Positions 3,354 through 35,404 of a stretch of DNA of 39,033 nt are shown here, piece after piece. Within the stretch, counting starts at the first letter, position 1. Each line of letters opens with the position of its first letter. The DNA comes from an uncultured Clostridia bacterium (GTDB lineage: Bacteria > Bacillota > Clostridia > Christensenellales > UBA1242): the NCBI GenBank assembly GCA_947625165.1, contig CANQNH010000006.1, positions 1-39,033 on the forward strand, given 5' to 3'. A program made the translations under genes and the position numbers. The notes under the pieces are model-generated. The model was not told the DNA's origin. It did no database searches and saw only the letters and a list, made by a program, of their open reading frames with translations.

Positions 3354-3380
3354 CTAGCACTTGCAAGTCGAGAGTGCTAG
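3354..3380 (+). promoter_or_regulatory. CIRCE operator (HrcA binding site)
   Basis: CTAGCACTT-N9-GAGTGCTAG matches the CIRCE consensus TTAGCACTC-N9-GAGTGCTAA; followed by hrcA. Confidence 0.93.
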
Positions 3381-3406: not shown

Positions 3407-4384
3407 ATGGAACTTTCCGAAAGAAAAATCAAAATCTTGAATATCGCTGTTGAGGAGTTTATCAAAGACTCCGCTCCAATCACGAGCGGTTCGGTGAAGG
3501 ACAGCACGGCGCTGGGCGTCAGCACCGCAACACTTCGCGCAGAACTCAATGCTTTGGAGGCTATGGGGTTTTTGAAACAACTTCACACTTCGGGCGGGCG
3601 CGTTCCAACTGCACAAGGCTATCGGTTTTATGTGCAGAATTTGCTGAAAAACATCAAGGCAAGCAATTCCGAACTTCAATCTGTGCGCGAACTTATCGCA
3701 AATCGCACTCAGAATTTGAACGAAATTGTCAGCGGAATTGCAAAACTTGTCAGCAAGGCAACCAACCACCCAACAGTTGTGCTTGTCAACGGAATTGAGA
3801 ATTTGATTTTGCAAGAGTTTAAGATTGTTCCGCTGCTGGACGAAAAATGCTTGGTGCTTATTGGCACGAACTATGGCTACATCACCCAGCAACTTGATAT
3901 TGCTGCCTCAGCCAAGAGTTGCGAAGATGCTTCAAACTATTTGACCAAATATTTCAAAGGTGAAAGTGTTGGCTTTTTGATTGAGAACATCGACCAATTC
4001 AAGAGAGGAATGAGCGGCGAAATCAAGGCATTTCAAGCAGTGGTGGACAATGTTATTTTGGGGTTGACCAGGCTGAACAAACAAAAACTTTTGAATGTGC
4101 AGGCGGAGGGAGTTGTTGATTTGGTGGACAATTCCGCTGATGAAGCCAAACGAGTGCTGAAAACGTTGAACAACGAGAATGAACTTATCGAAGTTTTGGA
4201 CGGAAATGAGAAAGAAATCTCGGCTGTGATTGACGAGGAAAAGTGCTCGGTTGTGAAAGCTCCGATTTTGGTTGGTGGCAAACAGGTGGCATCTATTGGC
4301 GTGTTTGGCCCGCAAAAAATGGACTATTTGAGTGTTGCGTCTGCGCTGAAAGTGGTTGTTGAACAACTTGAAAAAGGAGAATGA
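3407..4384 (+). CDS. hrcA: Heat-inducible transcription repressor HrcA
   Basis: MELSERKIKILNIAVEEFIKDSAPITSGSV...STATLRAELNALEAMGFLKQLHTSGGRVPTAQGYRFYV; downstream of CIRCE. Confidence 0.95.
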   Translation: MELSERKIKILNIAVEEFIKDSAPITSGSVKDSTALGVSTATLRAELNALEAMGFLKQLHTSGGRVPTAQGYRFYVQNLLKNIKASNSELQSVRELIANRTQNLNEIVSGIAKLVSKATNHPTVVLVNGIENLILQEFKIVPLLDEKCLVLIGTNYGYITQQLDIAASAKSCEDASNYLTKYFKGESVGFLIENIDQFKRGMSGEIKAFQAVVDNVILGLTRLNKQKLLNVQAEGVVDLVDNSADEAKRVLKTLNNENELIEVLDGNEKEISAVIDEEKCSVVKAPILVGGKQVASIGVFGPQKMDYLSVASALKVVVEQLEKGE

Positions 4385-5142
4385 AAGTGACAAAGAAAGA
4401 GAAAAACATAAAAAAAGACAACTTTGAAAACCTTGAAAATGGTTGCGAAAGTGAAGAATGTGCTTGCGAAGAAGGCTGCGGCTGTGGAGAAGAGCATTCT
4501 CACAAAAAGTGTGGATGTGGTGAAGAGTGTTCGTGTCCGCCAGAATGCGGATGTCATCGAGGCGAAGAATGCACTTGCGGACCTGACTGCAAATGTCGAG
4601 AGGGCAAAGATGGATGCACCTGTGGGCAGTGCGAGTGTGACGATGGATGCGATGACGAATGCGATTGCGGGTGTGAGAGTGACAAAAAAGACGAACCGAG
4701 TGAGTGCTGCGCCGAAAAGAAAACCGTGCAAGCGGAGGAATATTTGGCGATGGCACAGCGGCTGCAGGCGGATTTTGACAACTATCGCAAACGCGTTGCA
4801 GACCAACTTGAACGAGAGCGGCAAGAGGGTGCAAGAAGTGTGATTGAGGTGTTTTTGCCTTGCCTTGACGCATTTAAGGAGGCAAAGAAGAGCATCACAG
4901 ACGAAAACATCTTGGCTGGGTTTAATATGGTTGAGAACAAAATCTTGGACGCTCTTGGCACACTTAAAGTTGAGAAAATCAATTCAATCGGACAACATTT
5001 TGACCCGCATCTTCACAATGTCATCGCGGTGCTTTCTGACCAAAGCAAAGAAAATGACACCATTTTGGAGGAATATCAATCTGGCTGGATAATGAATGGC
5101 AAGGTGATAAGGTATGCAAAAGTTGTCGTGAACAAAAAATAG
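4381..5142 (+). CDS. grpE: GrpE nucleotide exchange factor with Cys-rich metallothionein-like N-terminal extension
   Basis: ATGA overlap with hrcA; C-terminal part EYLAMAQRLQADFDNYRKR...GQHFDPHLHNVI...GWIMNGKVIRYAKVVV is GrpE; residues 22-110 contain 25 Cys. Confidence 0.95.
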   Translation: MKVTKKEKNIKKDNFENLENGCESEECACEEGCGCGEEHSHKKCGCGEECSCPPECGCHRGEECTCGPDCKCREGKDGCTCGQCECDDGCDDECDCGCESDKKDEPSECCAEKKTVQAEEYLAMAQRLQADFDNYRKRVADQLERERQEGARSVIEVFLPCLDAFKEAKKSITDENILAGFNMVENKILDALGTLKVEKINSIGQHFDPHLHNVIAVLSDQSKENDTILEEYQSGWIMNGKVIRYAKVVVNKK

Positions 5143-5338: not shown

Positions 5339-7180
5339 ATGAGCAAAATTATTGGTATTGACCTTGGAACAACAAACTCTTGCGTGGCAGTTATGGAGGG
5401 CGGAAAACCAACCGTCATCGCAAATGCAGAGGGTGACAGAACAACCCCTTCTGTTGTGGCTTACACAAAAGAGGGCGAAAGACTGGTTGGTAAGGTTGCC
5501 AAAAGACAGGCAATCATCAATCACGAAAACACAATTCTTTCAATCAAGAGAGAAATGGGAACAAACTTCAAAGCAAAAATGGGCGGAAAGGAATATTCCC
5601 CACAAGAAATTTCTGCGATGATACTTTCAAAATTGAAAAGCGATGCTGAAAGCTATCTTGGCGGACCTGTCACTCAGGCTGTCATCACCGTGCCTGCCTA
5701 TTTCAACGACAGTCAGCGTCAGGCAACAAAAGATGCCGGAAAGATTGCTGGGCTTGAAGTTTTGAGAATTATCAACGAGCCAACTGCCGCCGCACTTGCC
5801 TATGGGCTTGACAAGGGCGAAAATCAAAACCAAAAGATTTTGGTCTATGACCTGGGCGGTGGAACATTTGATGTTTCCATTCTTGAAATTGGCGACAATG
5901 TGTTTGAAGTTTTGTCAACAAACGGAAACACCAGACTTGGTGGAGATGACTTCGACAATCGTATCATTGATTTCTTGGTTGAAGAATTCAAGAGCAAAAA
6001 TGGCGGAATGGACCTTTCACAAGACAAACTTGCAATGCAGCGTTTGAAGGATGAGGCAGAAAAGACAAAGATTGACCTTTCTTCAAAAACAATGGTCAAT
6101 GTTTCAATTCCATTCATCACTGCTGATGCAAATGGTCCAAAACATTTGGAATGCGAACTTACACGCGCAAAATTTGATGCTCTCACAGAAGATTTGGTGA
6201 AAGAAACCATTGAGTGCTGCGAAAGAGCCTTGAAAGATGCAAAACTTTCAAAATCACAAATTGACAAGGTGATTTTGGTGGGCGGCTCAACAAGAATTCC
6301 TGCTGTTGTTGAAGCAGTGAAGTCCTTCACCGGAAAAGAGCCATTCAAAGGCATCAATCCAGATGAGTGTGTTGCCATCGGTGCAGCAATCCAGGCAGGC
6401 GTGTTGGCTGGAGAAGTGAAAGATGTTCTTCTTCTTGATGTCACACCACTGTCACTTGGAATTGAAACTTTGGGCGGAGTGTTCACAAAACTTATTGAAA
6501 GAAACACAACCATTCCAACAAGAAAATCACAAATTTTCTCGACTGCTGCCGACAATCAACCAGGAGTTGATATTCACGTTCTGCAGGGTGAAAGAGAGTT
6601 TGCGGCTCAGAACAAAACACTTGGAAGATTTCAACTTTCCGACATTCCACCTGCACCAAGAGGAGTGCCACAAATTGAAGTGACATTTGATATTGACGCA
6701 AATGGAATTGTCAAAGTTTCTGCAAAAGATTTGGGAACAAACAAAGAGCAGAACATCACAATCACCGCTTCTTCAAACTTGAAAGAAGAGGACATTGAAA
6801 GAGCCATCAAAGAGGCCGAAGCACACGCAGAAGAGGACAAAAAGCGCAAAGAATTTGTTGAAACAAAGAACAATGCGGACAATATGGTTTATTCTCTTGA
6901 AAAACTTTTGAAAGAAAATGGGGACAAGATTTCTGCCGAGGACAAAAAGCGCCTTGAAGACGAAATTGAAAAGGCAAAGAAAGAGTTTGAAAGTGACGAC
7001 ATTGAAGTTGTCAAAAAAGAACTTGACGAACTGACAAAAGTTTCGAATGAAGTTTTCACAAAAATGTATCAAAACGCAAATCCAAATCAAAATGCAGGCA
7101 GTGGTGATGCTGGCAACGGAACAGGAAGTGGAACAGGAAGTGGAACAGACGGGAATGACCCAGATGTGACAATCGAGTGA
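5339..7180 (+). CDS. dnaK: Molecular chaperone DnaK (Hsp70)
   Basis: [43 protein letters not shown]; full-length 613 aa Hsp70. Confidence 0.98.
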
Positions 7181-7181
7181 A

Positions 7182-7506
7182 AAACTGCGCTGATGCTCGT
7201 TTTCGTGCAAAAGTTTGCCCGAAAAGCATCGCCCTGACGCTTGTTTTTCACTCCGTGCCGCCAAACGAAAGCCGTTTGCAAAGCAAAGCGGCTTTGCGGC
7301 AACTCTCTTGCGAAGAAAGTCTTCGCGGGAGATGAAGTGAAGCTTTTGAAACTGCGCTGATGCTCGTTTTCGCGCAAAAGTTTGCCCGAAAAGCATCGCC
7401 CTGACGCTTGTTTTTCACTCCGTGCCGCCAGACGAAAGCCGTTTGCAAGGCAAAGCGGCTTTGCGGCAACTCTCTTGCGAAGAAGGGCTTTGCGGGAGAT
7501 GAAGTG
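7182..7506. repeat. Two-copy tandem repeat, period 167 bp, no indels apparent
   Basis: AAACTGCGCTGATGCTCGTTTTCG...GGGAGATGAAGTG at 7182-7339 and again at 7349-7506; both ends offset by exactly 167 bp; internal inverted repeats. Confidence 0.95.
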
Positions 7507-7559
7507 GGAGTTTTGTTTCAAGATTGTTTTCGTCAAAAAAGAGCAAAGGAGGTTTTCAA

Positions 7560-8637: not shown

Positions 8638-9765
8638 ATGGCAGGAAAGGACTATTATGAAATTTTGGGGGTGAGCAAGAGCGCTGACGCTGACGAGATT
8701 AAGTCGGCTTATCGCCGTTTGGCAAAAAAATATCACCCAGACCTTAACAAAACGCCTGAAGCCGCTGAAAAATTTAAGGAAATCAATGAGGCCTATGAGG
8801 TTTTGGGTGACGAGAAAAAACGTGCAAACTATGACCAATATGGCTCTGCGGACGGGCCACAGTTTCAAGGTGGTGGCTTTGGCGGAGATTTTTCTGGTTT
8901 TGGTGGTGGCTTTGGCGGTTTTTCCGACATTTTTTCGGACATATTTTCGGCGTTTGGCGGTGGCGGAAGTGGTCCGCGTATGCAGCAGCGCGGCGATGAC
9001 ATTGTGATTTCAATGCGCCTTTCTTTTGACGAGGCGATTTTCGGCGTGGAAAAACTGATTTCTTTCAACCGAGTTGAAACTTGTTCGAAGTGCAACGGCA
9101 CGGGCGCAAAAAATGGCAGAGAGTTCACCACTTGTCCGGACTGTAAAGGCTCGGGAAGGGTGAGAATTCAACAAAACACAATGTTTGGCACAACAATCAG
9201 AGAGAGTGTTTGTCCAAGATGCAGTGGCACGGGCAAGATGATTAAGGAGCGTTGTGAAGAGTGTGGCGGAAAAGGTTGTAAGCGTGTTCCGGCACAGGTG
9301 CGAGTGAAAGTGCCTGCTGGGATTGATGATGGTCAAACAATCCGAATGCGTGGAGAGGGAAATGCCCCTGCTGGACAGGGAATTTCTGGCGATTTGAACA
9401 TCAAAGTGACAGTTGGGCAGCATCCAATTTTCAAGCGTGTTGGCACGGATTTGCTTTTTGACCTTTATGTTCCATTCACAACCTGTCTTTTGGGCGGAAA
9501 GGTGGAAATTCCGCTGACAAGAGGCACGAAAGTCATTGATATTGATGCTGGAACGCAAAATGGAACAGTCATTCGCGTGAAAGGTAAAGGCGTGAAGGTG
9601 CTCAATCGTGAGGCGTATGGCGACCTTCTTGTGACGATTAAGAGCGAAATTCCAAAATCACTCACCAAAAAGGGAAGAGACCTTTTGAAAGAACTTGAAG
9701 CCAAGTTTGACGAAAATGACTATCCAAAAGCAAAAGAATTCAAAGGCAAGATGAAGAACTTGTGA
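8638..9765 (+). CDS. dnaJ: Chaperone DnaJ
   Basis: J domain [39 protein letters not shown] region, four CxxCxGxG-type zinc motifs. Confidence 0.98.
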
Positions 9766-21456: not shown

Positions 21457-21726
21457 GATTTGGGGCAGATGAGTGTCAAAAAACCAAGTGTTTTGAGAAA
21501 CGGGCGGATTGCTCTTGAAAGCAGGAGGGGTTTTGATGCAAAAGTCTGCTTCTTGTCTTTAATTTTGACAATTTTGGGCAGCAAAAATCGGAAATTTTTG
21601 GAGAAAAGAGGAACGAAAAATGCCATATCGGCAACTTTTCGACAATAAAAGTGCTTTTATTCTTACATAGAAATTTGGTGCCTTCGCAAAATATTTGTAA
21701 ATTTCGCCGACTTGTGAAATTTTTGT

Positions 21727-21756
21727 TTGACTTGCTTGGCGTTTTTGCGTTAGAAT
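21727..21756 (+). promoter_or_regulatory. SigA-type promoter of the large surface protein gene
   Basis: TTGACT - 18 bp - TAGAAT. Confidence 0.65.
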
Positions 21757-21797
21757 ATATGTGTTATCATATATACAAACAATTTAGGAGAGGACTT

Positions 21798-24700
21798 ATG
21801 AAAGTGAAAAAACATTCAATGCTTTTTAAAGGAATTGTGATGGTTGTTGCTTTTATGCTGACAGCACTCTGTTTTCCTGTCAAGGAACTTGTTGCGTTTG
21901 CTGATGAAACGGCAACGGACTACAATTTCCTGACAATCGGTGACGGCACAAAAGAGGTTGAAACTGTTGTCAACCGCGGTGCAGAATACACAATTCCAAG
22001 CGCATATATTGGCGGAAATTCGAATTTAAAAATCGGTGACACGTCAAAAAATGAAACAACTGACAGTAATTCGGATGGACAAATTTTGACAGCATCCAGC
22101 GTGAAAGTGACATTCAATGATGAAGTTGACGAAGATGGCAAACTGAAAGAAATTGAAGCACCTGAGGGCAAATTTGTTGCAAGCAGACTTGGGACATACA
22201 CCATCACATATTCATACACTTTCTATGCTGCAGAGGCTGACAAAAGCACAGCAGTCACAAACAGTCACCAACTGAAAGTGAAGAGTGTTCTTTCATCTGC
22301 ATCATTTGATTTGACAGACCCAGATGTCATCTTCCCAGAGGTTGTTGACCTTACTGTTGAAGGTGCAAAAGAAACTGTTGAGGGCGGCGAAAAGCCAAAA
22401 GATGTCTATCTTCCAACTCCAAAAATCACAGGCGAGAATGGAAAGGACGTCCCTGTGAAAGCATATAAATCACTTGATGCTGCAAAAGCAACAGAGGATG
22501 CAAACTTTGTTGTTGTGACAGCAACAGGCGGTGTCAACAACAAAGCGTTTGAGGTTTCAGAAAAAGAAGAAAAACTCTATGTTGACGGCTCAAAGTTTGA
22601 GGCAAAAACAGGGGAAGCGCCTTCCGAATTTGGTGCAGGGACTTACACAATCAAATATTCATACTACACCCGCACAAAAAATGGAGAGAGTTGGGGTGAA
22701 CCATACTTTGTGACATCAACAACAAAATCATTCAAGGTCTATAATGACAAAAACAATCCATACTACAAAAACTTCAATGAAATCACACTTGAACTTTCAA
22801 AAGATTGGGTTGACAACGGCAAACGCGGTGAAGAAAGCTCTCTTCCAACAGCAATCGGCGTGACACCAAAAGATGCCACTCCAAACGGTGAAAATGTTGC
22901 TGTGTCATACAAAGTGCAAGTGCTGTTCAAAGAAAAGTATGGTGACAAGGACTATGCTCCAATCACAAAAGAGGTTTATGACAAAACCACTGATGCAGAT
23001 GGAAACGAAGTTGACATTCTCAAAGAGGAAGATGGACAACTCTATTTGGCAGACCCAACAAAGTTCACACCGCTGCAAGATGGCTACTACACTTTCATCT
23101 ACACCATCACAGACTTCTATGGCCACACTTATTCTTCACCAAAAGGCGTTTATAAATTTGATGATGTGAAGGATGAAAAAGAGCCAACACCTGTGCTTTA
23201 TGACGCATCACAATATGCAGGAACAACCGACTATGCTGACAAAGAGCATAAAGACGAAAGCCACAAACTGAAAACTTATGCCACATCCAATGGCGTTGTT
23301 GTTTATGCAATCGGAATGAACGACAATGTTTCCAAAACCAGCGAGGCTGTTGAAGGACCTTTGGCTGAGGGCGAAGAAAAAGGCAAAGTCAGACTGACAA
23401 GAAAGATTATGCGCGGTGCAGAAACTGTGCTTGAAATCAATCAATACAACAGATTTAACCTTGTGTTCAACTATCGCAACTCTGCAGCCTACAAGGCATA
23501 TGAAAACTTCCTCACAAACAACTTCCTTGTTCGCAAGGCAGTTTCAGAGGATGCAACACTTGTTGGTTCAACAGTTGAAGAAAAAATCACAACCAACACA
23601 AAAATGCTTGAATGGCTTCAAAAACACAACTATTTGATTGTTGTTGACAATGCCAATGCCGAGAAAATTTATGAAATTTTCAGTGCCGAAGGCGAAAACT
23701 TCTTTGACAGCATTGAAAGCGTGAAGAATGCCGGAAGCGAAATCCCACAAGAGCAAGCAGACCACGATGCCGCAGTTGCCGAGGCAAAAAAGAACGCTGC
23801 AATCGCTTGGCTCAAATCTGAAGATGCAGTTGCAAAGGGTTTTGGCTACATCGACACTGACGAAACATTTGGCGCAGACGAGGCAGACAACGGAACAGGG
23901 CGCGACAACTATTATATTCACTATATCGCAGTTGACGCTGCAGGAACAACAGGTGATGTTCCATATGACATCAGCATTGTTCTTCAAGAAAACGAGGAGC
24001 AAGCACCTGAAGTCAGATTTTCAACAACACTTCAAAAAACCTATTTGCCAAATTCTGTTGTGACATTCAATGTTCCAACAGCAAGCGACAATCGTGACGC
24101 AAATATGCAAGTTGTCACACTCTATCGTTTTGTGAATGGCACAAATCAGCCTGTGAAGGTTGAAGACAAAAACACAACTGAAGGCGAAGTGAAAGGCATC
24201 AGTTTGACATCTCTTTGGACAGACATCAATGGAAAAAGAGTGAAAGGAATGCTTTTGACAGACACCTACAAAGCATATCACGGTGAAAGCGCAGATGGTT
24301 ACATCGATTTGACAGACGCAGACGCAACATCTTACACAATCGACCTGAAAGAAGGCGGAACGGACGCCGTTGGACTGCAAATTTTCTGCTATGCTTATGA
24401 TGATTGCGGAAATGTTGGAATTTATGCTGAAACAATTTCAATTCTCAACTCTGAGGACAACAAAGCACCACAATTTGTTTCCGCAGAAGCACCAAAGGGG
24501 GCAGAATATTCTCAAGATGAAGAGATTGAACTTCCAACAATCACTGTTCAAGACGATGCAATCGGATTTGTTGACTATGAAGTGAAACTTTTCCACATTG
24601 AAGATGATGGAACAGAAACAGAGTTCAACAATGTTATTGACACTCATATTGTCAGCCGCAGAACTTGGGCTCAATCCAAGTCTGGTGAACTGAAACTTTA

Positions 24701-26255
24701 TGCAGGAAGATTTGTTGCATCAGCATCTGGAAAATATCAAGCAAGAATTTCAGTTGTTGACAGCAAGAAAAACACAATTGTTTACTTTGCAGATTATTAT
24801 GTGAAATCAAGAGTTTTGTCTTCTTCAGTTGAGGTGCGCTCAACTTTGGAAAAGAACCAAACTGTTGAACTTTACAAAGACACAGTTCTCATCCCAGACC
24901 CAACAGTGACCTATTCAATCGACAAGAGTGTGACATACGACATCTTCAAGGCAAATTCAGACCTTTATGATGCAGGCAAGACAGACCCAGAAACTTATCC
25001 AAATTCAAGATATAACAGCACTGATTGGGTGATTTATGGTGTTGATAGCAACGGAAAAGCATATGACTATGACACCAAAAACGGAATTATGGGTTCGCTG
25101 ACACCGAAAGAGGCAACAACCTATGAAATCCAATACACTGTCAACTTCACAGTTTATGACTTCAAGAAAGTGACCTACAAAGACGGCACTGAAAGTGAGG
25201 GCTATGACGGCGGCTACTTCACATATACAGAACAACCAAAACTCAAGATTTACACTGTTGACGAAAACACGTTCTATGTTGTTTACGCAAACGGAGAAAC
25301 AAAAACATTCACCGTTGTCAGAGAAGGCGAAGACGTGAAAGCATATGCTGATGGTTCTGTGATTGAGGATGGCAGCAAAACAAACTATGGCATCAATGAT
25401 GTTGACCTCAAACAATGGTTCAGAGATATTCAATTCCTTCAAGTGAAGAGTGATGTCTATCGCATTGAGGCAAAAGACACAACTGCTCCAACACTGAAAC
25501 CTTATGACTATGTTGAACACATTGACATTGATGATTTGAAAGACCCAGAAAAATATAATATGAAACTTGACATCTATGGTATTCAAAGTGATGATGAAGA
25601 CATTGATTGGTCAAGATCAGTTGTCACAGTTTCTGGACAACTTGCAGATAAAACAAACATCAGCCCTGTGGAATATAAAGGCTCGTTTGAAACAAAAACT
25701 TACACTTTCACAACTGATAAGGATGCAACATACACAATCAACTACACTGTTTATGACAAGAGCGGCCTTAGCACAAGCAAGGACTATTATGTGACAGTTG
25801 GTGATGCTGTTCCACCAGAGTTCCACTTCCTCAAAGATGACTTTGTCAAGGAAACCTACAAACTTGAAGAAGTCAGCGGAAGCAATCGTTTGACAATTGA
25901 CCTTAACGATATTGAAGTTCTTGACAATTCGACAACGATTGATGCAGACGTTGATGTCAAACTCTATCGCGGTGATGACGAAATCAAACCAGACGAAAGT
26001 CCAAATGCTGATGTTCTCAAATTCAACATCACACAAACAGGAAACTACACTTTGACTTTTGAAACTCGCGATGCCGCTGGAAACAAACAGACTTATGAAA
26101 AGAAATTCACTGTTGAAGAAAAAACACAAGACACTCAGATGGTTTATCAGACTGTTGGAACAATCTTGATTGTCATCTCAGTTGTTGTGCTTGCAGGTGT
26201 CATCATCTACTTCATCGTTTCCAAGGTTAAACTTGACAAAGAGTTGAAGAAATAA
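21798..26255 (+). CDS. Large secreted/membrane-anchored surface protein with Ig-like repeats (1485 aa)
   Basis: Signal peptide MKVKKHSMLFKGIVMVVAFMLTALCFPVKELVAFA; repeated beta-rich DxxGN-type segments; C-terminal TM helix TVGTILIVISVVVLAGVIIYFIVSKVKLDKELKK; GGAG RBS. Confidence 0.85.
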   Translation: MKVKKHSMLFKGIVMVVAFMLTALCFPVKELVAFADETATDYNFLTIGDGTKEVETVVNRGAEYTIPSAYIGGNSNLKIGDTSKNETTDSNSDGQILTASSVKVTFNDEVDEDGKLKEIEAPEGKFVASRLGTYTITYSYTFYAAEADKSTAVTNSHQLKVKSVLSSASFDLTDPDVIFPEVVDLTVEGAKETVEGGEKPKDVYLPTPKITGENGKDVPVKAYKSLDAAKATEDANFVVVTATGGVNNKAFEVSEKEEKLYVDGSKFEAKTGEAPSEFGAGTYTIKYSYYTRTKNGESWGEPYFVTSTTKSFKVYNDKNNPYYKNFNEITLELSKDWVDNGKRGEESSLPTAIGVTPKDATPNGENVAVSYKVQVLFKEKYGDKDYAPITKEVYDKTTDADGNEVDILKEEDGQLYLADPTKFTPLQDGYYTFIYTITDFYGHTYSSPKGVYKFDDVKDEKEPTPVLYDASQYAGTTDYADKEHKDESHKLKTYATSNGVVVYAIGMNDNVSKTSEAVEGPLAEGEEKGKVRLTRKIMRGAETVLEINQYNRFNLVFNYRNSAAYKAYENFLTNNFLVRKAVSEDATLVGSTVEEKITTNTKMLEWLQKHNYLIVVDNANAEKIYEIFSAEGENFFDSIESVKNAGSEIPQEQADHDAAVAEAKKNAAIAWLKSEDAVAKGFGYIDTDETFGADEADNGTGRDNYYIHYIAVDAAGTTGDVPYDISIVLQENEEQAPEVRFSTTLQKTYLPNSVVTFNVPTASDNRDANMQVVTLYRFVNGTNQPVKVEDKNTTEGEVKGISLTSLWTDINGKRVKGMLLTDTYKAYHGESADGYIDLTDADATSYTIDLKEGGTDAVGLQIFCYAYDDCGNVGIYAETISILNSEDNKAPQFVSAEAPKGAEYSQDEEIELPTITVQDDAIGFVDYEVKLFHIEDDGTETEFNNVIDTHIVSRRTWAQSKSGELKLYAGRFVASASGKYQARISVVDSKKNTIVYFADYYVKSRVLSSSVEVRSTLEKNQTVELYKDTVLIPDPTVTYSIDKSVTYDIFKANSDLYDAGKTDPETYPNSRYNSTDWVIYGVDSNGKAYDYDTKNGIMGSLTPKEATTYEIQYTVNFTVYDFKKVTYKDGTESEGYDGGYFTYTEQPKLKIYTVDENTFYVVYANGETKTFTVVREGEDVKAYADGSVIEDGSKTNYGINDVDLKQWFRDIQFLQVKSDVYRIEAKDTTAPTLKPYDYVEHIDIDDLKDPEKYNMKLDIYGIQSDDEDIDWSRSVVTVSGQLADKTNISPVEYKGSFETKTYTFTTDKDATYTINYTVYDKSGLSTSKDYYVTVGDAVPPEFHFLKDDFVKETYKLEEVSGSNRLTIDLNDIEVLDNSTTIDADVDVKLYRGDDEIKPDESPNADVLKFNITQTGNYTLTFETRDAAGNKQTYEKKFTVEEKTQDTQMVYQTVGTILIVISVVVLAGVIIYFIVSKVKLDKELKK

Positions 26256-26508: not shown

Positions 26509-29500
26509 TCACTTAACTGAAATTCGTTTTCTCAGTTTGATGATGATGACAACCACTGCAATCACCACAAGAACCGAAATCACAATCGCGATGATTGATG
26601 CGGCGTTCATTGGGTCTTTCTTGACAACTTTGTAGGTGAACAACAAGTTTCCGCTTGGGGCAATCAGTTGAACATAGTATGTTCCTTCCGTGTTGATTGT
26701 CATTGAAAGTTCTCCGCTTGATGCTTCGTTGATGGCAATCTCATCGCCAAAGTAGGAATATCCATTCTCAAGTTTCCTCAACACGCGCAGTGAGCATTCG
26801 CCCATTTCTTTATAGATGTTTGCCTGATTGAACCTTACGGTGATTGGGTCAGTTGTTGTTGCTCCTTCGCCAACCGAAACGCTGATTGATGCTGTGCCAA
26901 CTTTGATGGAAATTTTGAAGGTGAAACGTTGATGAACAGCATCTTGTGCAAATTGTGTGTCTCCAGTGTTGACTGTGATGAAGTATGTTCCTGCTCCGGT
27001 TTTTTCATCCAAATAGGACAGTGGGAGTGAGGTGATGTAGGTCTTTCGTGAGGTCACATAACTGCCAAGTCCAGTGCTTTCGTTGACCACATATTCGCGC
27101 ACTGTCTTGGTGATTGTTTCAACATCCAGCAAGCGAACAAGGTCATTTGTTATGTCATCAAATTGTTGCTCGGTTTCTTCGCCAACAACTTTCAGCACTT
27201 GTTCAACATAATAGTTTGGATATTTGTTGACAATGTATGAGAATTTGTTTTCGTTTGCATTTATGATTGAGAATTGATAGGTTTCTTGCCTGATTTGTCC
27301 ATCACCGGTGTTGCTTGTCGCCAGGAAGGTGATTTCATAGAAGCCCGGTTGGTCAAACACATATTGTGCATTTGATGAGCGGAAATCTTCGCGCGCATAT
27401 TCAACTCCGTTTCGTTTGACAAGATAGTGCGAATTTTCTGAGTTTTCAGGGTCAGCATAATAAAGCACTGGGCGGCCTTCAAGAGTGTAGAAATCTGTCA
27501 AAGTTGATTGGTCAATGTTGATTGTCACACTTCCGTTGTAAACCGCTTGTTTGATTGGCAGTGATGTTTCCTGTTGGTTTGTCAGCGGATTGGTGTAGGT
27601 CACTGTGAACGGCACATCTTTCAAGAAAATGTAAGTGAATTTCTCTGTTTGCCCATCGCCAAAGCGTTGCATATTTCCAGCGGCGTCCCTCAGGGAGAGG
27701 GAGTATTTTCCAGAATAGTTGAGGTTGGTGTAGAAATAATCTCTGCCTTCTTCTGTTTTGGAGTACACGGTTGGGGTAAATTTGACCCCATCTTTTTCAA
27801 CAATCAAACTTATTTCATTTTCAGGAATGCCATAATATTTTGACCATTGCAGTTGCACGCGCTCCAAATTTTCATCTGAAACAACAAGTTTCTCGCTGGT
27901 CATTCGCAATTCTGTGTCGGCAAAGTTTGAACTTCTTCTTGTTCCAATTGCAAAAAATTCGTCAACAAAGTCATCTCTGTCAGGAATGAATGTGATGATG
28001 ATTTCTGTCCTAAAGCTTGGTTTTATGCTTTCGTCACTTGTTTCAATCACCCATTTCTTGCTGGTCACCATTCCATCGGCGCTGTCCCATCTATCGTCTG
28101 TTTCATACGCAATCAGGGACTGCTCGTTGTTGACTTGAACGCTCACTGAAGAACGATCGTCATAACTGAGGTTGACAATATAGTGATTTGGATTGAGTTC
28201 GCCATTTTTTGCTTTGAATGGTTGTTTTGCGCGCTCAACAATGGCTGTCACGCCGTTGACTGTTTTTTCAACCCAATATGTGACTGCAAGCGAGGTCAGG
28301 TTGAATTCAAGAATTTGTTCGTCTGGCACAATGCCAAAAACATATTCCGAATTTGCCTTTTTGCCGTCTGGCCACTGCTGCAACCACTCTTCGTCATACC
28401 AAATCTTCAAGAAATATTTTTGCATTTCGTTGGTTGTGCTTCTTATTCTTGTGCCGGACGCTATTGGTGTCCAATTTTCTCTGTCCGTGCTGATTGAGAA
28501 TTTCACAGGTGGGAGATAACTGTTTTCGCTTTCGCCAAGATTGTATTGCACACGCACTTCGGAATAATAACCCATATTGCTTGAACCTTGGTCGTTCAAT
28601 ATGTCTTGTGTGATGTTCTTGTTGTTGGCATCTGTGAGTTTATATTGATTTGTTCTGTTCACTTCGTCAGTTGCATTGCGGGTTGGAAGTTTGTTATACA
28701 ATTTGAAATATATGTTCTTCACCCATTCGCCAGTCACGTCACCATTGAGTTCATAAAGTTTCAGCACAACTGTGAAGTCATAGTTTGATATGGCGTTTTT
28801 CGTCTGGAATGTGATGGTTGATGTGCCATCTCGATTTGTTTCAGGCGGGCTTTGAACAACATTCGGCAATGTTTCATCCTCTGTGCCATTGATGATTTCC
28901 GCAGCAACAAGGTTGTATTTCTCACGATTGTAAGTGTATTGCAAGAAGTTTTGAGTGATGTAGTAAAATCTTCCTTCTGGCTCATAGAGATAGTAGTATA
29001 TGTCATACATTCCGCCTTGCGAAGCAATCTCTCTGTCCGCATCAATCACAGCTTCACGATATATATGAATTTCGCGATAGTGCTGACCATAGTTGTCCCA
29101 AAAATCATAAATAATCCACGTGTTCGGTGCAAATTGTTTCTCTGGATTGAGTTCGAAGTTCAGTGTTGCTCCGCTGCTGTCAACCAAAATGTTGAGGTTT
29201 TCATCCGTTCTCCAAATGTCCATATATCCAAGCGGATTTTCCTGCTCAAACAAAACTTCATTGCCTGAAGCGGTTTTTCGGCTGATTTTCAAATGTGTCA
29301 GATAAAGGCTTGGGGTTGTTGTGCTTTGAATTTCAGCATCTGTCACTTTTGCAAAGCGGATGAACTCTCTGTCTTGCTGGTCGGTTGTTTGCGCTGTCAG
29401 TGGAACATCGCTTATGTTGAGATAGAAATCCACAACGCGCGCAGTTTGTCTGTCATAAATTGCAAACGACATCTTTTTGTGACTGTCGAAGTTTGACGGC

Positions 29501-32500
29501 ACAAGTGATGCCAAATCAACTGTTTCGCTGACAGAACCGGTGTACAGGCGATAACCTTTCGGGGTTGAAAGCACTGTCAGGGTGATTGGGCGGTTGTTTT
29601 CGTCAAAGGTGTGGACAAGCATTTGTGCCCAAACATCGCCAAAGAAATTCAGTTTTTCAAGTTTGAAGCCGGAGTGAGAATATATGTTGTTTATTGCGCC
29701 TGCGCGGCTGGCAACAAGGTTGAATTCTTTGACAGTGTATGCCTTTGTCACAAGGCTGCCTGTTGTTTCATCTTCTTCCTCATCAGGAACTGTGTAGGTG
29801 AACAATTCCAGACTTTCGTCAGCACGGGAGGAGATGAAGATGGTGTATATTGAGCGATTGCCAGCAAGGTCAGTTTCAACCACTTCATAATAGTGCCCTT
29901 CCTCCAAAATGGAAACCTCATCAACAGGACTGAACCCATTTATCAGTGGCGCGCTTGCATCAGTTTCTTGCTCATAGTTGTTGTCATATTTTGTGTTGTT
30001 GAAGTCGCGAATGTAGGTGACATAATCTTGTGAATTTTTCAGTTTTTGCAGATAGGTTGAAGAAACATTGTAGGAATAATATGCAAAAACAGAATCTGTT
30101 TTGTTGCTTGTGTTGAAAGATGTTTCGTCCAAAGAATCTGCTTTCTGGCCATTTGCTTTCTTATAGTCACGAAGTGATGCTTTTGTCATTGTTGGAATCA
30201 TATTTCCACTCAACGAGTCATCCACAAGTCCCTCAACATTGTCGCTTGGAGCGGAAAGGTCAATCTTGATTTTCTTTGTGATTTTGCTGTATAGATATCT
30301 TCCGTTGGTGTCTTTTGCTGTTTCATAGTTTTGATATTGCATTGTGATCAGCACTTCGCCGCCGTTGCGATAGACATTCAATTTTTGCTCAGCAAAACTC
30401 AAAATTCCCGCCCAAGTGGAGTTGCTTTGCAGTTCTGGTGTTTGGCTCCAGAAGCGTTTTCCACCATCTTCAGCAGATGTTGTGGTTGTTGTCCCGTTTG
30501 CTGTGAAGGTGATGGCATCTTGGTCAATTTCTGCCATATATTTGTTTGCAGATGCTGCCCAAGTGAGTGTGACTTCGCTTTGGTTGGTGTAGTATGTTGT
30601 GATGCCGTTTTCAACAGTGGAGTTGAGCGCCTCGCCATTTTTTGCCTGCACTTCAAAGTCAGGAGTTGACGATGTGACCACAAATTTGAAAACAAATGTC
30701 TGGTCAAAATTGAAGCCTGTTTCTGTGTTGTCGTTGAAATGCGTGCCAAAGCGATTTTGATATATCTTCACATAATAATCGCCAGGAGCGGTGATGATGC
30801 CAAATTCTTGCGTGTTTGAACTTGCAGAATAGAATTTCAAGAAACCATTGTTTGCCACAGCAGAATTTTCAATTGGGTTTCCATTGCTGCTCGTGATGAT
30901 TGCATTGCTTTCATTTGTTTTTGCAACAAGATTTTGTTGTAAGAGCCCATCTTTATATATTTCCGCATAGAGAGCAAACTCTTGAACAACAATTCTGTCA
31001 TTTTCATCTTTTTTGAAGTTGTTGACATCTCCATTGTTTTCAACGCTGAAATCATAGGAGGCATCGGCCACGTTCTTTTGAACATATTTGGTGTATTTAA
31101 ACTGTGGAACATAGACATTCACAGGCAGTTTGTTGGTTGTCACAACAGGTCGCAGATTATTTGGATCGTTGTTATAGGTTGAAGTGCCGTCAGTGTTGCC
31201 TTCTTCACTGTTTGGGAATGTCACAACGAGGTCGGTTGTCACCTTGTTGTCATAACTTGCAACAAAGATGTCGCCGCCCACCATACTTTCAAGCGGGCCT
31301 CCATCATACGACTCGGCGCTTGTCACAATGCCATAATGGTCAACGTAGAACACATAGGTGAATTGATAGGCGTCTTTTTCGTTGAAAGTATAGTTGTCGC
31401 CAAGTTTGTATGTTCTTGTGATTTCATATTTTCCCGGAGCGGTGTAATTTGCACTTGAACGAATTGGCGCTTCAAAAACCTCCTCGTTTGCTGTGAACTC
31501 AAAGGTTTGCTCTTCCGCATCTTTTGAGAGGGAGTAATAGTGGAAATCGGTTGGCTCGCCTTTGACATCCAGTGTGTCATATGTCGGAACATAAGCCCAA
31601 TATTTCATTGTGACACTGTCAACTTCCGTGCGTTTGTCGCCTTCAGAGAAGGTTGTGACAGGTTTGAATGAAACATACAAAATCTTTTTGACGCCAACAG
31701 GGCCAATATATGTTGTCAGCCAAGTTTTGCGTTCGTCATCCTCGGCAACGCCCTCTTCGGTTATCACGGAATCAAGTGCAACGGGGGTGTCGTTGTTTTT
31801 GTATGAGATTTTAAATTCTGATGTGTCAAAACTGATTGTGATTGCTTGTGTTGCGCTGTAATATTGGGTGTATAAAATGTTTTCGCTGGAATTATAGCCT
31901 GTTGTGTTGGAATAGTCGCGAATCCAAATCTTGAAGGAATAGCGTTTTTCTGCCACAAACTCTTTTTTGTATGCATTTTCCAGCCGTGTGTGTGTTCTGT
32001 GGTCGTTGTCGATGTAGTATGCCACATTGTTGATTGGAACTGCAACGTAAAGGCCAGTGTAGGAATCAATCAGTGTTGAGCCTTCGCCTTTGGTTATGTT
32101 GGAAGAAATTGTGATGTTCTTGAAGAAAGACTGTTTGAACAATTTTTCATACAGCAGTTCATAAATTTTTCGCTGCAACTGCTTGTCTTTGTCTTGGAAG
32201 AATGGATCACCAGACAGCATCTCATCTGTTATCTTTGAAGGGTCTTCAACGTTGTTGGCAAAAAGTGATGTGTTGAAGTTTGCAATGTAAATCAGTTTGT
32301 GTGTGCCCCAATAGAGCGTTGAATTTTTGTCGATTGGTGTGTTGTAACTTGGCAGATAGTATTGATTGTCTTTGATTGCAAACATAGGCTTTGTGTCATC
32401 AATCACAAAAACATCAAGAGTATAGTTGCCTGCTTGGTCAAACACTTCAACAAGATAGAGCCCAGCATCAGAAAAGACTGCATCAGACGGGATGTTTGTC

Positions 32501-35013
32501 AATGGCTCATCCTTTGTGTTTCTGGCATAAGGTGTCCAATCGTTGTTGCTTGTGGACATATTCAAAACCTTGTTGATTGGCATATAGTGGAAATCTTCTT
32601 CATCTTCCAACAGCCGACCAAGAAGCTCGGACAGGTTTGGTGTGTTGTAGTATTGTTCATCAACAAACGGGAAGTAGCGATAATATGCCGAAGTTTTTGC
32701 GCCGCTTGCTTTTTCATCCCACGAAAGCACAATGTTTTGATTTGTGAACACTCTGTTTGGTTCAAGTGTGTCAAGCACAACAATCGAGGAATAGGTTTCT
32801 TCAACCGTTCTTGCAGAAATTCCTTTGTTTCCCATTGATGTGATGTCCATCGAGTCAATGGTGAATGTTTTGGTTCTCAAAACGCCATTTGTGTTTGATA
32901 TGCTTGTGTTTGATGGCATCTCTGAAGAATAATACAGGCGCAGGGTGAATGTGGCATTCAGGTCTTTGCTCAAAACAACTTTTCCTTCTTCCTCGTTTTG
33001 CTCTGCGCACAAAACATCAAGCGATTTTCCTCTGTCACCCAAAAACTCGTCTAAGTATCTCTTGTTGACATAGTCATATGCATAAATTTGGATGGTCACA
33101 TCTTTGTTATAGGCATCACCAATGGTTGTGTCTGTGATGATGACATCTTCATTCACGAAAGAGCCCGTGAACACAAGATTGCCAGACTTTGTTTCGGTTT
33201 TCCACTCTGGGAGGTCGTTTTCAATCTCAAAGAAGAAAATTTGATAGAAAACTTTTGAAAGAGCAGGAGGAGAAGTGTAACTTTCATAATAGTTTTCAAA
33301 AGTGTATGGAATTATGTATATGTATTTTCCCGTTCCGCTCTCGGTGGTGTTGTCATAGTCACGCACATAAAGGTCTTCGCCTTGCAGTTTAAGTGTGTCG
33401 CTGCCACTTGTTGCAAGGGTTGAGCCAACAAGCTTTCTTGTTGAGAGGATGTAACTCTTGTTGACAGAATTGTTGACAAGTCTGGCGTTTGTTGTCATTC
33501 TGATTGGCGCTTGGTTGGTGGAAATTGGTGTGTGTTTATATGCATCACCCTCTTTCTCATTGAGGAATTCCAAGACGTTTGACAAGTTGAATGTTGTTTC
33601 GCCATTGTCCTGTGTGTATTCACTTTTGGAATTCAGAAATTCACTTGTCACATCGGCGCTGTCAAGGAAAGTTCCAATATCCTTTGGAGTGCCATTCTCA
33701 TCAACAAGGTCGAGTGTTTTCAAGTCTCTTGACGGGCGAGTGTTGTTCTCGTCAGGCTGGGCATCATAGTCAACATAGGTTGCTTGATAGCCAAACATAA
33801 ACACCACAACTTCACGTGTGTTTTTTGACAAGCCGGCAATGTCATATTTTTGGATGGATTGTTCTCCGTCACCAACAATATGAATGGCGTTGAATTTTAT
33901 GGTGTATTTTCCAATGTCGGTGAAATAAAGTCGCACAAGGCTGTTGGAGTAGGTCACATATTCAACAAGTTTCTGTTTTTCAAGCAAAACAGGCTTCTCT
34001 TTCCTGTCGGCAGGGTCAACATTCAGTTTCAAGCTCATCTGCGGAGTTGTGGTTGCGCCAGGCACTTCCTTTGAAATCTCCACTTCAAAGCGACGGCAGT
34101 CGTATTGTATGTATGGCACAGAATTTTGTTGTTTCAAAGTGCTTTCCGCTGCCGAGTTGATTTTGGAAGAATAGTTGCTGTAAAGATAATATGCAGGCTC
34201 GTTGATGCCAGCGATGTTCAATTCGTGGTCAAAAGCGCCTTTTGTTATCACCGGTCGGTTTTGTGAGATGTAGTTCGTTTCGTCAACAACAAAAAAGGTG
34301 TAGTTGATTGTGACTGCTGTGGTTGGTTCAAAATCGCTTTGCTCTTCTTCGGCATCCGTTCTGCCATTTGTGCAAGTGAAAAGCACCATGGTCACTTGGA
34401 GGTTGTAAATTCCCTCTTTGTTGAGGCGGCCACTGTCATCGGTGATTTTGTATTCATAGTTTTCTGTGCCAGAATTGCCAAGCACCATACGGAAGGTGTT
34501 TGGCCTTTGTCCGCCATTATAGTTTGAAAATTGAGAAGAACTGTGTGTTATGAAAGTCTTTCCCAAAGAGGTGAAATTTTCTTCTTGGTCTTCCCCATTG
34601 ATGAAAAGGGAAACATCTGTGACATCATAGAAATAGAACAAATTTGATTCTGGGTTGGCAACATCTGGATAGTAAACAAAGTTGTAAACATCGTCGCCAT
34701 TGCCTCTTGTTGCACCATTTGTTTTGAGAGAGAGTTCAAGTCTGTTTGATTGTTCTTCACCACGAACGAACACAAAAACATCGTCATCAATGAAAGAGGC
34801 AGGGTTGTCCACCCAAGCATCACTTTGGAAAATCTGTTCTTTCTTTGAAAAAGTTTCGTGAAGATTGTTTTCCGGCAAAGTTTCTGAAACAGTGTTTTCA
34901 GCGAAACCAATTTCCTCCTTGAAAGAAAAAAGTGTTGCAAGACCTGCACTCAGCAGGCATATCGACAAGAACAATGTGAAAACATTTTTAAACAAGACAT
35001 TATATCTTTTCAT
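26509..35013 (-). CDS. Giant surface protein with tandem Ig-like domains (2834 aa)
   Basis: ATG at 35013: MKRYNVLFKNVFTLFLSICLLSAGLATLFSF signal peptide; many EVFDQAGNYTL / ETDLAGNRSIYT / LRDAAGNMQRF segments; C-terminal TM IIAIVISVLVVIAVVVIIIKLRKRISVK; uninterrupted frame. Confidence 0.88.
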   Translation of the reverse strand: MKRYNVLFKNVFTLFLSICLLSAGLATLFSFKEEIGFAENTVSETLPENNLHETFSKKEQIFQSDAWVDNPASFIDDDVFVFVRGEEQSNRLELSLKTNGATRGNGDDVYNFVYYPDVANPESNLFYFYDVTDVSLFINGEDQEENFTSLGKTFITHSSSQFSNYNGGQRPNTFRMVLGNSGTENYEYKITDDSGRLNKEGIYNLQVTMVLFTCTNGRTDAEEEQSDFEPTTAVTINYTFFVVDETNYISQNRPVITKGAFDHELNIAGINEPAYYLYSNYSSKINSAAESTLKQQNSVPYIQYDCRRFEVEISKEVPGATTTPQMSLKLNVDPADRKEKPVLLEKQKLVEYVTYSNSLVRLYFTDIGKYTIKFNAIHIVGDGEQSIQKYDIAGLSKNTREVVVFMFGYQATYVDYDAQPDENNTRPSRDLKTLDLVDENGTPKDIGTFLDSADVTSEFLNSKSEYTQDNGETTFNLSNVLEFLNEKEGDAYKHTPISTNQAPIRMTTNARLVNNSVNKSYILSTRKLVGSTLATSGSDTLKLQGEDLYVRDYDNTTESGTGKYIYIIPYTFENYYESYTSPPALSKVFYQIFFFEIENDLPEWKTETKSGNLVFTGSFVNEDVIITDTTIGDAYNKDVTIQIYAYDYVNKRYLDEFLGDRGKSLDVLCAEQNEEEGKVVLSKDLNATFTLRLYYSSEMPSNTSISNTNGVLRTKTFTIDSMDITSMGNKGISARTVEETYSSIVVLDTLEPNRVFTNQNIVLSWDEKASGAKTSAYYRYFPFVDEQYYNTPNLSELLGRLLEDEEDFHYMPINKVLNMSTSNNDWTPYARNTKDEPLTNIPSDAVFSDAGLYLVEVFDQAGNYTLDVFVIDDTKPMFAIKDNQYYLPSYNTPIDKNSTLYWGTHKLIYIANFNTSLFANNVEDPSKITDEMLSGDPFFQDKDKQLQRKIYELLYEKLFKQSFFKNITISSNITKGEGSTLIDSYTGLYVAVPINNVAYYIDNDHRTHTRLENAYKKEFVAEKRYSFKIWIRDYSNTTGYNSSENILYTQYYSATQAITISFDTSEFKISYKNNDTPVALDSVITEEGVAEDDERKTWLTTYIGPVGVKKILYVSFKPVTTFSEGDKRTEVDSVTMKYWAYVPTYDTLDVKGEPTDFHYYSLSKDAEEQTFEFTANEEVFEAPIRSSANYTAPGKYEITRTYKLGDNYTFNEKDAYQFTYVFYVDHYGIVTSAESYDGGPLESMVGGDIFVASYDNKVTTDLVVTFPNSEEGNTDGTSTYNNDPNNLRPVVTTNKLPVNVYVPQFKYTKYVQKNVADASYDFSVENNGDVNNFKKDENDRIVVQEFALYAEIYKDGLLQQNLVAKTNESNAIITSSNGNPIENSAVANNGFLKFYSASSNTQEFGIITAPGDYYVKIYQNRFGTHFNDNTETGFNFDQTFVFKFVVTSSTPDFEVQAKNGEALNSTVENGITTYYTNQSEVTLTWAASANKYMAEIDQDAITFTANGTTTTTSAEDGGKRFWSQTPELQSNSTWAGILSFAEQKLNVYRNGGEVLITMQYQNYETAKDTNGRYLYSKITKKIKIDLSAPSDNVEGLVDDSLSGNMIPTMTKASLRDYKKANGQKADSLDETSFNTSNKTDSVFAYYSYNVSSTYLQKLKNSQDYVTYIRDFNNTKYDNNYEQETDASAPLINGFSPVDEVSILEEGHYYEVVETDLAGNRSIYTIFISSRADESLELFTYTVPDEEEDETTGSLVTKAYTVKEFNLVASRAGAINNIYSHSGFKLEKLNFFGDVWAQMLVHTFDENNRPITLTVLSTPKGYRLYTGSVSETVDLASLVPSNFDSHKKMSFAIYDRQTARVVDFYLNISDVPLTAQTTDQQDREFIRFAKVTDAEIQSTTTPSLYLTHLKISRKTASGNEVLFEQENPLGYMDIWRTDENLNILVDSSGATLNFELNPEKQFAPNTWIIYDFWDNYGQHYREIHIYREAVIDADREIASQGGMYDIYYYLYEPEGRFYYITQNFLQYTYNREKYNLVAAEIINGTEDETLPNVVQSPPETNRDGTSTITFQTKNAISNYDFTVVLKLYELNGDVTGEWVKNIYFKLYNKLPTRNATDEVNRTNQYKLTDANNKNITQDILNDQGSSNMGYYSEVRVQYNLGESENSYLPPVKFSISTDRENWTPIASGTRIRSTTNEMQKYFLKIWYDEEWLQQWPDGKKANSEYVFGIVPDEQILEFNLTSLAVTYWVEKTVNGVTAIVERAKQPFKAKNGELNPNHYIVNLSYDDRSSVSVQVNNEQSLIAYETDDRWDSADGMVTSKKWVIETSDESIKPSFRTEIIITFIPDRDDFVDEFFAIGTRRSSNFADTELRMTSEKLVVSDENLERVQLQWSKYYGIPENEISLIVEKDGVKFTPTVYSKTEEGRDYFYTNLNYSGKYSLSLRDAAGNMQRFGDGQTEKFTYIFLKDVPFTVTYTNPLTNQQETSLPIKQAVYNGSVTINIDQSTLTDFYTLEGRPVLYYADPENSENSHYLVKRNGVEYAREDFRSSNAQYVFDQPGFYEITFLATSNTGDGQIRQETYQFSIINANENKFSYIVNKYPNYYVEQVLKVVGEETEQQFDDITNDLVRLLDVETITKTVREYVVNESTGLGSYVTSRKTYITSLPLSYLDEKTGAGTYFITVNTGDTQFAQDAVHQRFTFKISIKVGTASISVSVGEGATTTDPITVRFNQANIYKEMGECSLRVLRKLENGYSYFGDEIAINEASSGELSMTINTEGTYYVQLIAPSGNLLFTYKVVKKDPMNAASIIAIVISVLVVIAVVVIIIKLRKRISVK

Positions 35014-35404
35014 AAAAATACCTCTCTCAAAATTCAAAATTATTTTAGCACAAACCGAAACAATTTCAAAACAAAAATAGGATATATTTATATAAATTTA
35101 TTATATATAAAATAACATATATCATACACACAAAATTTTGCAAAACAAAGATTTGCCAAAAACATTTTTCTGCCATATTTTTACGAAGAATAAAATAAAT
35201 CAAAAAAATAAGAAAAAAATCAAAAAAATATGTTTTTTAATGTTTTTTTTGCATTTTTTATTTATTTTTTTTATATTTTTTATTTTTTAATATTTTCAAT
35301 GATTTTTTTTATGTTTTTTTTGCATCAAAAAAGTTGACATTTTCAGCGCTCCAAAATTGTCTTTTTTAGCGCGCAAAAATATTTTTTCTTATTGCGGGCA
35401 AACT

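Follow-up and report, generated by a model that had tools for sequence, protein, structure and literature searches.

The GrpE protein encoded in the window, i.e. the whole stretch of 39,033 nucleotides that was analysed, carries a long cysteine-rich N-terminal arm that is probably a tethered metallothionein: a cytosolic metal buffer and sink fused to GrpE, whose function would reside in the module and not in the exchange activity. Judged from sequence, this reading is given a probability of roughly 60%. The gene is found in the order CIRCE-hrcA-grpE-dnaK-dnaJ (Table 1), a setting that agrees with its identity as grpE. The products of hrcA, dnaK and dnaJ contain 3, 5 and 10 Cys, respectively. 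Directly 3' of dnaK and ahead of the next ORF lie two tandem copies of 167 nt that are 94% identical (7182-7515). Elsewhere in the window, two very large ORFs (21651-26255, plus strand, 1534 aa; 26509-35037, minus strand, 2842 aa) resemble repetitive, secreted surface proteins that are anchored to the membrane at the C-terminus, and are large for a 1-Mb genome.

Table 1. Features of the heat-shock locus and of the grpE gene, in window coordinates
Feature	Position	Strand	Remarks
CIRCE-like operator	3354..3380	+	inverted repeat, 3 mismatches to TTAGCACTC-N9-GAGTGCTAA; 0.01 expected by chance
hrcA, heat-shock repressor	3407..4384	+	TIGR00331, 190.5 bits, slightly below the cut-off of 197.2
grpE	4381..5142	+	253 aa; ATG start overlaps the hrcA stop codon (ATGA)
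N-terminal 21 residues of GrpE	4381..4443	+	Lys/Asn-rich, upstream of the first Cys
Cys-rich, metallothionein-like arm	4444..4710	+	GrpE residues 22-110; CxCxxxCxC; predicted disordered
Linker and GrpE core	4711..5139	+	long helix 108-171, helix 175-194, C-terminal beta domain
dnaK	5339..7180	+	TIGR02350, 946.8 bits, above cut-off
dnaJ	8638..9765	+	TIGR02349, 419.6 bits, above cut-off; usual zinc-finger cysteines

For residues 22-110 the first-pass annotation had given 25 Cys, mostly in CxC and CxxxC spacing, and 3 His, and the recount agrees exactly. Cysteine makes up 25 of the 89 residues of this block (28%), steps of +2 (11 times) and +4 (6 times) to the next Cys dominate, and a single extra Cys is found outside of it at residue 161. 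The CxCxxxCxC pattern occurs four times in the window, every time in the GrpE arm, against 0.34 expected occurrences. The block is devoid of I, L, V, M, F, Y and W, the few hydrophobic residues of the arm (e.g. NFENL) being confined to the first 21 residues. The in-frame fusion to a normal GrpE core is likewise confirmed, with PF01025 covering residues 112-252 (E 1.5e-34, 119.5 bits, cut-off 25.8) and the GrpE chains 4ani and 3a6m as the best solved relatives; the GrpE chains matched in the PDB also include 1dkg. AlphaFold2 modelling with a 13-sequence alignment predicts with confidence the long GrpE helix, which begins at residue 108, the only secondary structure ahead of it being a three-residue turn. 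Residues 1 to about 107 thus form a predicted disordered arm (pLDDT about 31-57 for residues 1-110), a prediction that is silent on folding around metal. The arm shows the metallothionein class traits of 15-35% Cys, CxC-type motifs and few or no aromatic residues. It departs from the trait of a small free-standing protein, being fused to GrpE, and most other carriers of the array described below are large proteins too. Another ORF, of 139 aa and with a TTG start, overlaps the arm in a different reading frame (4424-4843, plus strand) and most likely arises as a side effect of TGY codon repetition.

The genus of the source genome consists of uncultured Clostridia with genomes of about 1 Mb, and the named relatives are metagenome-assembled genomes (MAGs), many of them out of rabbit, deer and goat gut samples. 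Genus and family refer in all counts to group codes and not to named taxa, and as the genomes are apparently assembled from metagenomes, the absence of a carrier from one of them may reflect a gap. GrpE was recovered from 102 of the 112 genus genomes; four assemblies rated as 97-98% complete (G029, G091, G098, G103) gave no GrpE match, which may mean that grpE was lost or that it falls into a gap of the assembly. The 102 arms range from 26 to 138 residues and from 0 to 33 Cys (median 14). A look at GrpE of related Clostridia had been proposed as a check on the arm, and at least eight Cys were found in 80 of the 102. The in-frame Cys-rich arm is common to more than 80 species, which rules out a frameshift or assembly artefact. 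Furthermore, the spacing is far from random: the genus arms contain 579 CxC steps compared to 203 in shuffled arms, an almost threefold excess, and 44 adjacent CC pairs compared to 269, a sixfold avoidance. Together with the motif count in the window, this rules out a chance origin of the pattern.

The Cys codons have also changed less than the other codons of the arm. Across 24 close pairs, nonsynonymous change affects 9% of Cys codons versus 27% of other arm codons (p 2.5e-15), where the count over all pairs may be inflated by the alignment drawing Cys onto Cys; in the six pairs that align free of gaps, the Cys codons show 3 nonsynonymous and 14 synonymous changes, compared to 36 and 34 for the rest (p 0.015). 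This indicates that the Cys are under selection with the rest of the arm drifting. An acidic disordered tail that expanded neutrally as low-complexity sequence, accumulating Cys without function, would agree with the quick changes in arm length and with the Cys-free acidic arms that occur in the same genus. Nevertheless, such an origin is highly improbable given the purifying selection on Cys codons, the strong spacing bias, the use of both TGC (14) and TGT (11) in the arm, and the presence of the same array on unrelated proteins.

In two lineages of the genus the arms are rich in His and Asp, with 24 His in G006 and 28 in G092, and such compositions would fit metal ligands. These variants also bear on the proposal that the Cys block is a thiol or oxidant buffer, scavenging oxidants, electrophiles or sulfide species without bound metal. 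The high Cys content of presumably abundant cytosolic proteins is compatible with this, as is the anaerobic gut habitat presumed from the gut origin of the named relatives. However, the His-rich arms, the regular CxCxxxCxC spacing with Asp, Glu and His, and the avoidance of CC all suit metal ligands more than a simple reserve of thiols, and the buffer is an improbable account of the arm.

Within the family, an arm with at least five Cys is found in at least one species of about 22 of the 35 readable genera, a tally in which the start codon is uncertain for some of the negatives. The strict pattern of five Cys is present in 27 of the 197 genomes of the family and in 0 of 399 genomes sampled across the phylum, which disfavours the array as a general trait of Clostridia, with the proviso that only about 14 of the 399 belong to the same class. 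The view that GrpE elsewhere mostly has an acidic tail poor in or free of Cys holds for the other families of the order, which have ordinary arms with the exception of L183 (6 Cys). GrpE arms with 4-6 Cys were seen in other Clostridia (L066, L070, L079, L094, L111, L183) and may represent attenuated forms of such an arm. A profile built from the arm only (A1) was insensitive and missed known arms. Regarding the origin of the arm, the best phage GrpE matches span the core only and a phage origin was rejected. Horizontal acquisition of a known metallothionein was also rejected, as none of the metallothionein family models of Pfam and NCBIfam match above cut-off. The SmtA-type model PF02069 gave no match at E up to 10 to the window arm and five other arms, and the plant PEC model PF02068 reached sub-threshold values of E 0.11 for one arm and 0.0047 for the tail of a YtxH-like protein.

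The array is not restricted to GrpE. The CxCGDDCxC array also occupies C-terminal tails, namely those of trigger factor in genus g26 (L295-L298), of an unnamed protein in g27 (L299-L301) and, in the source genus, of a diaminopentanoate-dehydrogenase (DAP-dehydrogenase)-like oxidoreductase (L256, L257, L259, L264, L270). In Jag/KhpB (L278) it lies in the linker. The arm of GrpE contains no Cys in the trigger-factor carriers G200, G537 and G620, in the g27 carriers G547 and G630 (G615 being unreadable) and in the Jag carrier G514. Where the dehydrogenase tail carries 12 to 16 Cys, as in five genomes of the genus, GrpE has 1, 1, 1, 2 and 6 Cys. The remaining species have shorter dehydrogenase tails with mostly 3 to 9 Cys, the source genome having 6 Cys and 4 His. 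That the module sits on other housekeeping proteins, mostly where GrpE is free of or poor in Cys, suggests that the function belongs to the module itself. Similar CxCGDDCxC tails were seen on a YtxH-like protein and on DUF1292 proteins in other families of the order (L212, L214, L218), and the module may therefore be wider than the family.

The number of Cys on GrpE is negatively correlated with that on the dehydrogenase tail (Spearman -0.29, p 0.015; PGLS p 0.045). On the tree, five independent pairs are available, of which one to two run in the expected direction, and the sign test is not significant. A strong trade-off between carriers is not upheld with so few independent events, and the correlation is no more than suggestive of a trade-off between GrpE and the dehydrogenase tail. 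About 12 genus genomes have at most two Cys in the arm, and in several of these (G011, G104, G119) a replacement carrier was not found. G524 violates the one-carrier rule by having Cys arrays on GrpE and on a second small protein (L292). A trigger factor array was absent from the checked genomes outside g26. In the source genome no other convincing CxC array was found, the remaining pattern matches lying in hydrophobic or Trp/Phe-rich noise frames, and no free metallothionein with the CxCxxxCxC pattern was seen. The trigger factor gene of this genome (G000:C24:897-2153, L497) contains two in-frame TAA stops and is either broken or affected by an assembly error. For the family as a whole, whose genomes are small, the odds are about even that its main metallothionein capacity is a portable CxCGDD-repeat module attached to housekeeping proteins at their disordered ends or linkers, with the carrier switching in evolution (mostly GrpE, otherwise one of the four proteins above) and usually one main carrier per genome.

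The distribution over carriers also bears on the claim of the first-pass annotation that metal or thiol stress is coupled to chaperone cycling through the arm. In such a metal- or redox-gated GrpE, metal or oxidation would compact the arm and alter the action of the N-terminal tail on the DnaK substrate-binding domain, so that the chaperone cycle responds to the stress. The arm sits at the right place, as in E. coli and M. tuberculosis the disordered GrpE N-termini compete for the substrate site of DnaK, and the release of substrate requires them (PMC12915176, PMC10803776). Furthermore, the share of genera with GrpE as the carrier may exceed chance. However, the module is also present on proteins unrelated to DnaK and missing from GrpE in a number of genus species, residues 22-110 offer no hydrophobic residue for DnaK to bind, and both arm length and Cys number vary widely in relatives. 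A gated GrpE is for these reasons rather unlikely, and the proposed coupling is not supported; regulation specific to GrpE may exist in addition to the function of the module. The claim of a metal-binding module finds good support in the sequence: by composition, spacing, the lack of aromatic and aliphatic residues and the selection on Cys the arm looks like a metal-thiolate module, and its distribution suggests a portable tag that sequesters metal more than a sensor specific to GrpE.

The tethered metallothionein is favoured here since binding of soft metals by the module explains most economically why it occurs on several unrelated proteins, why its Cys are under selection and why there are His-rich variants. 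The disordered chain would fold around soft metal ions through the thiolates of CxCxxxCxC and some His; the metals bound would most likely be Zn, Cd or Pb, and possibly Cu(I). The metal-loaded arm could then act as the buffer and sink, with the carrier being of little importance beyond its abundance or inducibility. HrcA/CIRCE regulation should raise the level of GrpE upon protein damage, which would make GrpE a good carrier, and damage caused by metals would presumably be included. The source genome also encodes an ArsR/SmtB metalloregulator whose N-terminus contains the motif CKCVNCDC and whose gene adjoins that of a Cd-family P1B-ATPase (C8, L410, 3436-5899, minus strand). Such an ATPase scores above cut-off in 43 of the 112 genus genomes, and fewer GrpE Cys are found where it is present (Mann-Whitney p 0.009; PGLS p 0.046). 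This weak association would fit a partial exchange of efflux for sequestration.

Metal-binding tails on chaperones are known in a few cases, e.g. HspA, the GroES of Helicobacter pylori. HspA is the closest precedent by analogy, with no homology claimed, since it is likewise a part of the heat-shock chaperone machinery with a flexible Cys/His-rich extension that most family members lack. This extension binds metal and stores nickel, and its deletion lowers cellular nickel and increases nickel sensitivity (PMC5116745 and references cited there). The extension of HspA is C-terminal, short and dominated by His on a GroES core, whereas the GrpE arm is N-terminal with a long CxCxxxCxC array. In addition, an exchange of carriers is suggested for the CxCGDD module, whereas none is reported for HspA in the literature consulted. 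SlyD-type chaperones are folding factors with a disordered metal-binding C-terminal tail. SlyD is unrelated to GrpE, and its nearer parallel is the trigger factor of g26, a PPIase-chaperone with a Cys tail.

No description of Cys-rich GrpE arms was found in the open literature searched. In core fold, gene order and operon the protein is like ordinary GrpE (PF01025), but its N-terminal arm of about 107 residues differs from the short-of-Cys acidic tail of most others. Metallothioneins are known as small free proteins. The arm resembles those of the SmtA (PF02069) and plant PEC types in its Cys content, its CxC motifs and a Cys block without aromatics, whereas period-6 CxCGDD repeats and fusion to housekeeping proteins set the module apart. 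If the proposal is correct, a clade-wide and fast-evolving metallothionein arm on GrpE, a disordered module that is able to sit on different, unrelated proteins with its function presumably intact, would represent a new organisation of a metal buffer.
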